This document shows, in pieces, positions 26,001 to 31,067 of a stretch of 64,000 nt of DNA. Position 1 is the first letter of the stretch, and every line of letters begins with the position of its first letter. The DNA lies in contig NZ_BNJG01000001.1 of NCBI RefSeq assembly GCF_016587375.1, positions 2,480,001 through 2,544,000 on the forward strand. Direction: 5' to 3'. Made by a program: the position numbers and the translations under genes. Source of the stretch: Ktedonobacter robiniae. GTDB lineage: Bacteria > Chloroflexota > Ktedonobacteria > Ktedonobacterales > Ktedonobacteraceae. The notes under the pieces were generated by a model. It was not told the DNA's origin, did not search any database, and was given only the letters and a program-made list of their open reading frames with translations.

Positions 26001-27376
26001 GGACGCGCCTGCTGGGTCGTGTGCTGTCCGAGTCAATTCCTGGCCTGGAGCACATGGAAGCTGGCGATGAGATAACCGAGGAAATGGTCGAAGAGATCGT
26101 GGCCGCGGGTGTCAAGAAGGTGCGTGTCCGCTCCGTCTTGAACTGCCTGGCCCGCAGGGGCATCTGCCGCAAGTGTTATGGCCGCGACCTGGCAGCGAAC
26201 GCGCTGGCCAACATTGGTGCAGCGGTCGGTATCATTGCCGCTCAATCGATTGGTGAGCCGGGAACGCAGCTCACCATGCGTACCTTCCATACTGGTGGTA
26301 TCGCAGGTGCGCAGGGTGACATCACGCTGGGTCTGCCACGCGTTGAAGAGCTGTTCGAGGCGCGTGTACCGAAGGACAAAGCCGAGATCAGTGAGATCGA
26401 CGGCGTTGCCGAGATCATTAAAGACGAGAACACAAACCAGCGTACCGTACGCGTAGTTGCCAGTAACGTCTTCTTTGATGAGTACACCATGCCCGCGAAA
26501 ACCAAGGTACTGGTTAACGACCAGGACCAGGTCGTCAAGGACCAGGTGATCGCGTTGATGCCTGCGGAAAAGGGCGGTGAGCCGGTTCCGGTCATGGCAC
26601 GCACGGATGGCACGATCAACATTGGCGCGAATGGGCTGCTCTCGATTCGCTTTGAGGAGCATGACGAGCGCACTTATGCAGTGCCAGCGGCACGTAGCAT
26701 CGCCGTGGAGCATGGACAGAAGATTCAGGCGGGCACGCCCATCACTTCTGGCCAGCGTGATCCACAGGATGTTCTGCGTATCCAGGGACGTGAGGCGGTG
26801 CAGTTGTACCTGGTCAAAGAGGTGCAGCGTGTGTACCGTAACACTGGTGTGTACAATAACGACAAGCACATTGAAGTTATTGTCCGCCAGATGCTTCGCC
26901 GCATCAAGGTAGAGGATTCTGGCGACACCGACATGTTGCCAAACGACCTGGTTGATCGCTTCCATTATGATGAGACCAACGCGCGCGTCCTGGCTGAGGG
27001 TGGAGAACCCGCCACCGCTACGACCGTGTTATTGGGTGTCACTAAGGCCTCGCTCAATACTGACAGCTTCCTGGCTGCGGCCTCCTTCCAGGAGACCACA
27101 AGGGTGCTGACAGAGGCGGCGATTGAGGCCCAGACCGATCACCTTGTTGGTTTGAAAGAGAACGTCATCATTGGTAAGCTCATTCCGGCGGGTTCAGGCA
27201 TTGCCCAGCGCCGTAAGGAGCAGATCGCACGCCAGCAGGCGGCGGCCGCGCGCATCGCGGCGCAGCAGACTCCCGTGGTTGCTGGAGTCGTGGCTGGCAG
27301 CGCGAGTGAGAGCCTGGGGGATGGTTTTGCCAGTGGTACCCTTGGGCTGACACTTGACAGCGGGGACAATGAGTGA
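23024..27376 (+). CDS. rpoC: RNA polymerase beta' subunit with clamp insertion
   Basis: A 1450-residue protein. Zinc site 1 is Cys60, 62, 75 and 78 ([11 protein letters not shown] ... CDKC). The catalytic loop [12 protein letters not shown] binds the active-site magnesium. The second zinc site includes [15 protein letters not shown] and the earlier Cys in [10 protein letters not shown]. Between ALYVVTHID (about 140) and YRELRESFG (about 335) is a ~195-residue charged, coiled-coil-like insertion, where E. coli has only a short linker; Thermus carries a large insertion in a comparable place. The ATG at 23024 follows AGGAGGT by 3 bases. Confidence 0.97.
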
Positions 27377-27382
27377 TATTAT
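27354..27382 (+). promoter_or_regulatory. Promoter of rpsL-rpsG-fusA over the rpoC end
   Basis: TTGACA (27354-27359), 17 bases, TATTAT (27377-27382). The -35 and spacer overlap the last codons of rpoC. The start would be near 27389, giving the str operon independent expression. Confidence 0.7.
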
Positions 27383-27926: not shown

Positions 27927-28511
27927 GCTGGTCTGGCTGCGTCAGTATTGCCCGCAAGCCGCGGCTTGATGGGAAGGCCAGGGTAAACTGGAGTGGCCAT
28001 CAAGTTTCGCGCCAACTCCCTGCTATAGCGTAAGCGGGGTGGTTATCACGGTCACCGTGGGGCAACTTACGGTGATAGTCGGGTGTCCTCCTAGTACATA
28101 GCCAGTGCGACGCATGAGTTATCTCGTCGTGGCTATGCTTCTCAGAACGTCTCCTCTCAAGGACGTGAGGGAAAAAGGGAAAGGCGCCCGCGTGTAGGCG
28201 TCAGAGAGAGATTAAGGCGAAACGCAAGAAATAGCCTTAATCATTAGGCTCGACGCCTTTTCTGGTGTCTGTAAACTCCTTCTGGCTGATGCGGAGCGGG
28301 GGAGTTCTTGTGAGACACAAGTATTATCTTGCACTAGACGCGCGAGCGTCGGTTCTATGGCTTGACGAGAGGACAACATCGCATTCAGAGCGAAGTGATG
28401 CAGCAACAGTAGGGAATTTGGGTTAGTGGGATGTGAAAACTATCCACCGCAGCCGAAGTAATTCTAGAATGTGGTTGCTTCGCATCTGAATGGCTGAAAG
28501 GGAGGCAGAAA
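27927..28511. other. 585-base rpsL-rpsG intercistronic region
   Basis: No protein-coding gene is seen. Several inverted repeats occur: CACGGT-c-ACCGTG near 28048, and a nested structure at 28196-28258. In E. coli the (much shorter) S12-S7 spacer is the S7 autoregulation site, so an expanded regulatory RNA is possible here. Confidence 0.4.
28196..28261 (+). ncRNA. Nested stem-loop between rpsL and rpsG
   Basis: AGGCGTC (28196-28202) pairs with GACGCCT (28252-28258), enclosing an inner perfect stem ATTAAGGC/GCCTTAAT (28211-28218 with 28234-28241). TTTT follows the outer stem, so this could be a terminator, an attenuator or an S7-binding leader. Confidence 0.45.
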
Positions 28512-28982
28512 TTGCCAAGACGTAAGAGAGTGGTGCGACGGCCCGATGTGCCGGATGCAAAATACAGAAGCCGTAACGTGGCTCGCTTCATTAACAAAAT
28601 GATGGTTGATGGAAAGCGCAGCCTGGCTGAGCGTATTCTCTACGATGCGCTAGATGCCATTGAAGTAAAGCAGAAGCGCCCATCTATTGAGGTGTTTGAT
28701 CAGGCATTGAAGAATGCGACACCCAGTATTGAGGTTAAACCCCGTCGTGTTGGTGGTTCCACCTACCAGGTCCCTGTGGAAGTCCGCAAGGATCGTGGTA
28801 ACGCATTGGCAATGCGCTGGTTGATTCGTGCTGCTCGCACGAGAAACGGCAGGTCGATGTCGGATAAGCTGGCTAGCGAGTTGATGGATGCGGCGGCGGG
28901 ACAAGGTTCCACTATTAAAAAGCGTGAGGAAACTCACAAGATGGCGGAGTCCAACAAGGCTTTCGCTCATTATCGCTGGTAA
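28512..28982 (+). CDS. rpsG: Ribosomal protein S7
   Basis: A 156-residue protein, of normal length, from a TTG start with GGGAGG upstream. It has the S7 signatures PRRKRVVRRPDVPDAKY, VARFINKMMVDGKRSLAE and GGSTYQVPVEVR, and the C-terminal ETHKMAESNKAFAHYRW. It nucleates the 30S head by binding 16S rRNA. It is followed by fusA after 9 bases. In E. coli this protein is the translational repressor of its own operon. Confidence 0.98.
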   Translation: MPRRKRVVRRPDVPDAKYRSRNVARFINKMMVDGKRSLAERILYDALDAIEVKQKRPSIEVFDQALKNATPSIEVKPRRVGGSTYQVPVEVRKDRGNALAMRWLIRAARTRNGRSMSDKLASELMDAAAGQGSTIKKREETHKMAESNKAFAHYRW

Positions 28983-28991
28983 AAAGACATC

Positions 28992-31067
28992 ATGGCTAGA
29001 GAATTCCCACTCGATAAAATTCGCAATATTGGTATCATCGCTCACATTGACGCGGGTAAGACGACCACCACAGAGCGTATCCTCTACTACACCGGGCGTA
29101 TCCATCGCATTGGTGAGGTGCACGAGGGCGGCGCGACCATGGACTGGATGCCGCAGGAGCAGGAGCGTGGTATCACCATCACTTCAGCGGCCACTATGTG
29201 CTTCTGGAATGATTATCAGTTCAACATCATCGACACCCCTGGACACGTAGACTTCACAGCTGAGGTTGAGCGCAACTTGCGCGTACTCGACGGTGGCGTA
29301 GTGGTCTTCGACGCAGTCGCGGGTGTTGAGCCTCAGTCTGAGACCGTGTGGCGCCAGGCGAACAAGTATAACGTGCCTCGTATCTGCTACGTCAACAAGA
29401 TGGACCGCACGGGTGCCGATTTCTGGCGCACGGTTGATATGATCAGAACGCGCCTGAGTGCGGTTCCTGTGCCCATTCAGGTTCCTCTCGGCAGCGAGAG
29501 TAACTTCAAGGGCTTTATCGACCTGATCACGATGAAATCCGTAACCTTCACCGACGAGAAGGGCGCTTCGCCAATGATTAGCGAGATTCCCGAGGCGTTG
29601 AGGGACGAGGCGCAGCAGCATCGTGATACCATGGTTGAGCGCGTTGCCGAGACCGACGAGGAGCTGACGCTGAAGTTCCTTGAGGGCGAAGAGATCTCCG
29701 AAGAGGAGCTGAATACCGCGCTGCGTAAGGCGACCATCTCCAACGCCCTGGTGCCTGTTCTCTGTGGTAGCTCCTACAAGAACAAAGGCGTGCAGGCCAT
29801 GCTCGATGCTGTCGTGCATTATCTGCCATCGCCAATTGATATTGCGCCACCTGTAGGTATCAATCCAGATACCGAGCAGGAAGAAACCCGCGAGGTTGAT
29901 GACAACGCTCCCCTGAGCGCCCTGGTCTTCAAGATCGTGTCTGACCCCTTTGTTGGTCGCCTCTCCTACATTCGTGTTTACTCTGGTACCTTGAAGAAGG
30001 GCGCCTCGGTCGAGAATACGACGAAGGACAAGACCGAGCGTGTTGGTCGCCTGTTGCGCATGCATGCCAACCACCGCGAGGATATCGATGAGATTCGCGC
30101 GGGCGACATCTGTGCCGCCGTTGGTCTGCGCAACACCTTCACAGGTGATACGCTCTCCGACTCGTCCAAGCCGATCATCCTGGAGTCGATCTCCTTCCCC
30201 ACGCCGGTTATCGAGATCGCTATCGAGCCTAAGACGCGTGCCGATCAGGAAAAGATGGGTGTTGCTCTGGGCAAACTGGCTGAAGAGGATCCCACCTTCC
30301 GCGTCAATACCGACCAGGAGTCTGGCCAGACCATTATTAAGGGTATGGGCGAGCTGCACCTGGAAATCATTCAGGATCGCCTCTTCCGCGAGTTCAAAGT
30401 CGAGGCGAATGTTGGTCGCCCACAGGTGGCCTATCGCGAGACGATTACGCGTACCGCGCAAGCCCAGGGCCGCCACGTCCGTCAGACAGGTGGTAGCGGT
30501 CAGTACGGTGACGTCTGGCTGCGTGTTGAGCCAAATGAGCGCGGTAAGGGTATCGAGTTCGTCAGCGAGGTCGTTGGTGGTACCGTCCCCAGGGAATACA
30601 TCAAGCCGACTGAGCAGGGTGTGCGCGAGGCGCTGGAGAACGGTATTATCGCCGGCTTCCCCGTCGTCGACGTCAAAGTTGCTCTGTATGATGGTTCTTA
30701 CCACGACGTTGACTCCAGTGAGGCGGCCTTTAAAATCGCCGGTTCGCTGGGTGTCAAAGAGGGTGTCCGCAAAGCTGGCCCCGTGTTGTTGGAGCCAATC
30801 ATGATTGTAGAGGTTACCACACCTGAGGACTTCTATGGCGATGTCATCGGCGACCTCAACCGCCGCCGTGGCACCATCCTTGGTATGGAGACCCGTGCTG
30901 ACTCGAACGTCGTCAAAGCTAACGTTCCCCTGTCCGAGATGTTCGGCTACGTGAATGAGCTGCGTTCGATGTCCAGTGGTCGTGCCAGCTACTCGATGGA
31001 ATTCTCCCACTACGATCCCGTTCCAAAGAATATTGCCGACGAGATTATCGCCAAATCGAGCCGCTAA
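28992..31067 (+). CDS. fusA: Elongation factor G
   Basis: A 691-residue translocase GTPase. The G domain has [19 protein letters not shown] (G1), RGITITSA (G2), DTPGHVDF (G3) and NKMDRTGAD (G4). Domains II-V follow with the usual GMGELHLE and ETIT motifs. It drives tRNA-mRNA movement on the ribosome. It lies 9 bases after rpsG without a strong ribosome-binding site, so translational coupling is likely. A 12-bp stem hairpin follows the stop. Confidence 0.98.

Follow-up and report, generated by a model that had tools for sequence, protein, structure and literature searches.

The spacer between rpsL and rpsG of Ktedonobacter robiniae carries a folded RNA in which a helix, X, encloses the two arms P2 and P3 as a three-way junction, followed by a hairpin, P4, and a tail, and often preceded by a further hairpin, P1. 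The fold, taken as a set of helices, is conserved among relatives and occupies a fixed place, and no convincing second copy was found. We read this RNA as a cis-acting ribosomal-protein (r-protein) leader of rpsG-fusA through which S7, the likeliest ligand, would repress translation, and assign this reading a probability of about 0.5. In Ktedonobacteria, the RNA most likely tunes the output of S7 and its neighbours.

Gene context of the rpsL-rpsG spacer

The window, i.e., the 64,000 nt of contig NZ_BNJG01000001.1 that were analyzed, belongs to a genome of 10.7 Mb and contains, in this order, rpoC, rpsL, the spacer, rpsG, fusA and tuf, with gene names assigned from sequence and position. The best matches to the S7 protein among named records were from Ktedonobacteraceae, i.e., Ktedonobacter, Dictyobacter, Ktedonosporobacter and Tengunoibacter. 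TTG is the start codon of rpsL (27477) as well as of rpsG in the window, and the rpsG start codon varies among relatives (TTG, GTG or ATG). An initial annotation had described an S12-S7 spacer of 585 bases with several short inverted repeats; the gene boundaries confirm this length, and the spacer has, as a raw count, eight inverted repeats of at least 8 nt. In E. coli, the same spacer is about 100 nt long.

Long rpsL-rpsG spacers characterize the class Ktedonobacteria. Spacer length ranged from 283 to 583 nt (median 459) at 11 loci of the class, with L052 counted here, from 1 to 178 nt (median 23.5) at 26 other Chloroflexota loci, and from 9 to 387 nt (median 75) at 38 loci of other or unassigned phyla; five of the 80 loci were left out, three (L045, L055, L075) with no rpsL in reach and two (L057, L105) with no intergenic gap. 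Two loci of the same genus, L003 and L004, have spacers 69 and 104 nt longer than that of the window, and their DNA match to the window spacer is interrupted at query positions 394-404, downstream of the RNA core. The predicted fold of the window spacer reaches -235.4 kcal/mol, against a shuffle mean of -199.7 (sd 6.9; z -5.2), and none of 100 dinucleotide shuffles was as good. Of 28 spacers so compared, 27 folded with z < -2 (mean -4.2; 8 shuffles each).

Architecture of the RNA

Read from 5' to 3', the elements are P1, the 5' strand of X, P2, P3, the 3' strand of X, P4, the tail, a linker and the Shine-Dalgarno site of rpsG (Table 1). Relatives are referred to below by family (f1 to f4) and, for one genus, as g13.

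Table 1. Features of the rpsL-rpsG spacer and its surroundings (window coordinates)
Feature	Position	Strand	Remarks
Promoter-like TTGACA-17-TATTAT	27354..27382	+	End of rpoC; consensus match only; candidate promoter of the rpsL-rpsG mRNA
rpsL-rpsG spacer carrying the RNA	27927..28511	+	585 nt, between rpsL stop (27926) and rpsG TTG (28512)
Possible P1-like hairpin	28012..28042 (28012-28024 / 28033-28042)	+	Diverged from motif GA-NA-CC ... A-GG-UC
Helix X, 5' strand TCACG	28046..28050	+	Pairs with 28191-28195
P2 hairpin	28052..28075 (28052-28058 / 28069-28075)	+	Paired fraction compared with tree-based null (see text)
P3	28080..28190	+	Lower helix 28080-28087 / 28183-28190
P3 internal-loop letters	CTCC 28088-28091, GGAAA 28178-28182	+	Conserved
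P3 variable upper arm	28092-28177	+	Length very variable among relatives
Helix X, 3' strand CGTGT	28191..28195	+	Closes three-way junction X/P2/P3
P4	28197..28257	+	Two-stem hairpin of the initial annotation; outer stem 28197-28202 / 28252-28257
P4 inner stem	28210-28218 / 28234-28242	+	Perfect 9 bp
Tail TTTTCTGGTGTC	28258..28269	+	Conserved within each family; CTTYGCGCTGTC-like in f4
Linker, RNA core to Shine-Dalgarno	28270..28499	+	230 nt here; core ends 9-493 nt upstream of the Shine-Dalgarno site in 26 genomes measured
Terminator-like hairpin CTTGTGAGACACAAG	28307-28321		Downstream of core, then TATTATCTTG
rpsG Shine-Dalgarno site GGGAGG	28500..28505	+	Predicted unpaired fraction 0.50 vs 0.30 in shuffles
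rpsG (S7, 156 aa, TTG start)	28512..28982	+	Next gene downstream, then fusA at 28992; name from sequence

The internal loop of P3 keeps the letters CTCC/GGAWA across relatives, and the arms of P3 and P4 differ greatly in length between genomes. P4 is followed directly by TTTT (28258-28261). A nested two-stem hairpin ending in TTTT had been described in the initial annotation, which placed it at 28196-28258, correct to within a few bases; the hairpin is real, but the annotation had caught just the final arm of a bigger RNA. Within the linker, the 3' half of the terminator-like hairpin can pair with the tail (28262-28270 / 28313-28321, 89%), and some relatives, judged by eye, have comparable hairpins.

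P1 is a bulged hairpin; a search for its motif, GA-NA-CC ... A-GG-UC, detected it in 26 of 43 spacers (23 of 38 genomes bearing the core and three of five f2 genomes), so that it is not universal. Double changes occur in it, e.g., AAGA/UCUU in L031, and its fixed letters offer no independent test because the rows were picked by that motif. The P1-like hairpin of the window is a tentative assignment because the motif search fails to match the window itself. A closing helix of GAUAC, near P1, with GUGUC of the tail was considered by eye and rejected, as it fits some genomes and neither g13 nor f4.

Helix-level covariation

The helices were evaluated on 37 anchored sequences, against a null in which substitutions were re-placed 300 times along a tree of the S12 and S7 proteins; this alignment was made without L123 (genome G033), a row with no P3 anchor, and its P2 columns hold no letters for the six g13 rows. 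The paired fraction of P2 was 0.961 vs a null mean of 0.500, that of P3 0.939 vs 0.738 and that of P4 1.000 vs 0.701 in the 37 genomes, each reached in none of the 300 simulations, with about 9.8, 7 and 1.5 compensatory events, respectively. X is the weakest helix, with 0.869 vs 0.579, seven of 300 null simulations as high and about 3.5 compensatory events. Pair types beyond the first were as frequent in 0/300 simulations for X and P2, in 7/300 for P3 and in 60/300 for P4, i.e., not above the null for the latter. When the partners were slid by 1-3 columns, the paired fraction fell within 0.11-0.69. These values are to be read with an alignment that favours the structure, because X and P2 were aligned by eye and with their pairing in view; P4b of L124, L125 and L127 was gapped by hand.

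Separate alignments were made of 28 of 31 core sequences (A1), 16 of 21 f1 rows (A2) and nine f4 rows with L026 (A3). A2 was 95.3% paired, with nine pairs changed on both sides vs 2.4 after shuffling, and A3 was 91.4% paired, with 13 such pairs vs 7.0; the excess of further pair types was modest, 30/500 and 40/500 shuffles being as high for A2 and A3. When single pairs were examined by a G-test with average-product correction and a tree-based null, none of the proposed pairs was significant (best E 2.95), and the top pair, X4 with the last base of the tail (E 2.35), lies outside the proposed set. Compensatory changes back the helices as a set, not single pairs. Comparative covariation in relatives had been put forward as a check on the spacer structure, and loss of the stems as the outcome that would count against it: the stems are kept and the claim stands, with support at the level of helices against the null but at no single pair in the strict test.

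Distribution of the RNA

A DNA search with the window spacer found it in 13 of 61 genomes and, in the window's own genome, found the spacer alone; outside the genus, nine genomes matched, mostly over ~95 nt around P4. Of the 43 genomes of the order that gave an rpsG match, 38 show the core at the rpsL-rpsG locus, namely all 27 of f1, the one of f3 and all ten of f4, among them the divergent G033, where the P3 anchor is missing and the core was judged by eye. Four further genomes of the order gave no rpsG match. The core is absent from all five f2 genomes with an rpsG match, three of which retain the P1 motif only; two have spacers of ~100 nt.

Two covariance models, R1 and R2, were searched against 47 genomes. 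R1 gave 30 matches in 28 genomes, 26 of them at the rpsL-rpsG locus (four partial, in g13) and four weak ones elsewhere. Sixteen of the matched genomes had supplied the model; held-out finds at the locus were G001, G003, G005, G018, G026 and G030, with the four partial g13 matches, and G030, the f3 genome, was recovered at E 6e-6. R2 matched 11 genomes 12 times, with 11 of the matches at the locus; ten of these came from training genomes, the sole held-out find was G005 (E 0.09), and G033 was missed. On f2 loci, R2 returned chance-level matches only. Three of the four off-locus R1 matches, all except that in G031, were aligned, as was the off-locus R2 match in G043; these resemble P4 and the tail in part, are devoid of the P3 letters CTCC/GGAWAG, adjoin neither rpsL nor rpsG, and were rejected as copies.

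Each model was also run on 201 Chloroflexota genomes, 24 of them of this order. R1 matched eight genomes, all within the order, and R2 matched seven, i.e., six of the order and G068, whose two weak matches (E 0.007 and 0.009) are P4-like hairpins away from rpsL and rpsG and were discarded. The two models thus gave no convincing copy in the ~177 other Chloroflexota genomes, a result that could overlook a third version of the RNA that has diverged further and occurs beyond the order, because R1 is blind to f4 and R2 nearly so to f1.

The g13 insert and changes in S7

In six g13 genomes, the spacer extends to ~1.5-1.8 kb and carries, between P3 and the 3' strand of X, an insert of 794-982 nt (L135-L140), 79-94% identical among the six. 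Across the insert, four of the five X pairs are kept with changed sequence (ACAG with CTGT). Stop-free stretches in the insert span at most 79-121 codons (plus strand) and 88-220 codons (minus strand), and no shared gene is evident because these lengths differ in each genome.

The S7 protein has changed as well. Among 27 sequences, S7 of g13 (L023-L025, L027-L029) is 177 aa long, with ~21 extra residues near the N terminus, and S7 of f2 (L129-L133) is 163-164 aa long, with ~8 extra residues near residue 60; S12 has only three internal gap columns among 26 sequences. The insertions in S7 coincide with the lineages of greatest RNA change, g13 and f2, a coincidence that is a hint, since it comprises two events.

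Possible function of the RNA

Because a conserved structured RNA is fixed between rpsL and rpsG, an r-protein leader is the best reading. Covariation marks its structure as conserved at the helix level, and in 38 genomes it lies on the same strand as, and consistently upstream of, an r-protein gene. We infer that it is transcribed within the str mRNA, that S7 is its ligand and that translational repression is the outcome. The spacer would thereby encode a cis-acting structured RNA of the rpsL-rpsG-fusA mRNA; S7 in excess of the available 16S rRNA would bind the junction, S12 or another product of the operon being a less likely ligand, and bound S7 would lower the translation of rpsG and of the genes coupled to it. 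S7 would act at the same place as in E. coli, through a different and larger RNA.

In predicted folds of 28 of the 38 spacers, the Shine-Dalgarno site showed no conserved sequestration (mean unpaired fraction 0.44 vs 0.40 in shuffles), a set without L003, L036, L123, L134 and the six g13 spacers. The core regions were also compared, by sequence only and with the 16S rRNA of three genomes, to the 3' major domain, where S7 binds: for 29 core regions the best matches scatter, with a lowest p of ~0.05, and for the three whole spacers compared, shuffles scored as high in 9/200 (L001), 185/200 and 194/200 cases. Besides six full-length 16S rRNA copies, the window's genome contains a partial match of ~765 bases (G000:C1:4419238-4420002).

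The open Shine-Dalgarno site, at a variable distance from the core, fits better than direct occlusion with a processing or stability element, in which a nuclease cut at or near the junction would split rpsL from the rpsG-fusA message and set their ratio without a ligand. The greatly varying arms of P3 and P4 agree with this. A simple cleavage hairpin, however, would need neither the conserved unpaired CTCC/GGAWA, nor the tail, nor a conserved junction, and we consider such an element rather unlikely.

The size of the g13 spacer and its insert, larger to our knowledge than any known r-protein leader, and the distance of the core end from rpsG in some genomes would suit a stand-alone structural or catalytic RNA, i.e., a gene within the str operon whose product is excised from the mRNA. 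Against this, within the spacer a simple consensus scan picks out nothing promoter-like on the plus strand, and five f2 genomes live without the core, which makes a stand-alone RNA unlikely. The RNA is not a missing RNase P RNA, which was located elsewhere in 30 of 31 genomes. There is likewise a small chance that the compact junction core with its big peripheral domains represents a new class of large RNA that goes beyond a leader, e.g., a catalytic or self-processing RNA or a scaffold in the str operon.

A junction with conserved unpaired letters also resembles the core of a riboswitch, and a sensor of a small molecule or ion might control rpsG-fusA. Metabolite riboswitches usually control several genes, whereas this RNA precedes one r-protein gene only, has no convincing second copy and lacks conserved sequestration of the Shine-Dalgarno site, so the chance of a riboswitch appears slim.

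Of the two readings in the initial annotation, a new r-protein leader or an attenuator, the conserved RNA at rpsL-rpsG bears out the first and the course of the U-run tells against the second. An attenuator would use P4 and TTTT as an intrinsic terminator, with GGCACC pairing with GGUGUC of the tail as antiterminator. TTTT follows P4 in all 27 f1 and g13 rows, the tail can pair with the 3' strand of P3 in most f1 rows (by inspection), and a separate terminator-like hairpin lies downstream. In nine f4 rows, however, P4 is followed by TTT or TTC and then GC, and in the f3 row L026 by CCC, with the hairpin kept, and the tails of f4 and f3 cannot pair with the changed P3 strands (by inspection). 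The conserved U-run that accompanies the GC hairpin of an intrinsic terminator is thus shortened in f4 and lost in f3; as only f1 and g13 retain it in full, attenuation at P4 is very improbable. A terminator scan lists none at P4, which says little because the scan allows loops of 3-8 nt only.

Comparison with known systems

None of 4227 Rfam families reached its gathering cut-off in the window; with permissive settings, the best match of the spacer had an E-value of 5, below the cut-off, and the loci of nine relatives gave none at E 0.1. A literature search, outside most subscription journals and preprints, returned no paper that combines 'Ktedonobacter' with 'RNA motif', and no title or abstract among its top matches describes such an RNA. 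The available passages of PMC10931766, PMC2704228 and PMC2965389 do not describe it either. In the parts available, PMC7247131 has no mention of uS7 or Chloroflexi, PMC2864571 none of rpsG, rpsL or Ktedonobacter, and PMC6497799, on Ktedonobacteria genomes, contains no noncoding RNA terms.

In kind of evidence, i.e., covariation and a fixed place before r-protein genes, the RNA is comparable to the r-leader candidates of Eckert and Weinberg 2020 (PMC7247131), whose Table 1 names, in the 20 rows of the available text, neither a leader for S7 or S12 nor any lineage of the Chloroflexota. The attenuators predicted in rpsL leaders are, in the passages available, likewise lineage-varying regulatory RNAs of the same operon; they rely on terminators and are located before rpsL or, in streptococci, before fusA, whereas P4 forms no conserved terminator (PMC2965389). 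Closer in form is the rpsL motif of Candidatus Pelagibacter (Meyer et al. 2009, PMC2704228), described in the available text as also lineage-limited; its three-stem junction belongs to the str operon, and its protein partner is given as unknown. That motif precedes rpsL, whereas the Ktedonobacteria RNA precedes rpsG.

The E. coli S7 target is the nearest counterpart in place. According to the available passages of PMC10931766, S7 represses the E. coli str operon at the S12-S7 intercistronic region, so that both RNAs lie between rpsL and rpsG, with the same genes and, as we propose, the same ligand. The E. coli target is said there to resemble the S7 site of 16S rRNA; the Ktedonobacteria RNA shares its place, but its sequence does not consistently resemble the 16S 3' domain. 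It also appears to be larger, a three-way junction with extra arms. The RNA is leader-like in place and probably in action, with a new architecture. If this reading is right, structural work would gain a new folded RNA whose junction is conserved and whose insert is accordion-like. Ktedonobacteria would then have a lineage-specific regulator of different and larger architecture at the classic S7 control point, and a repeated evolution of S7 control over the str operon, each time through another RNA, would become directly testable.
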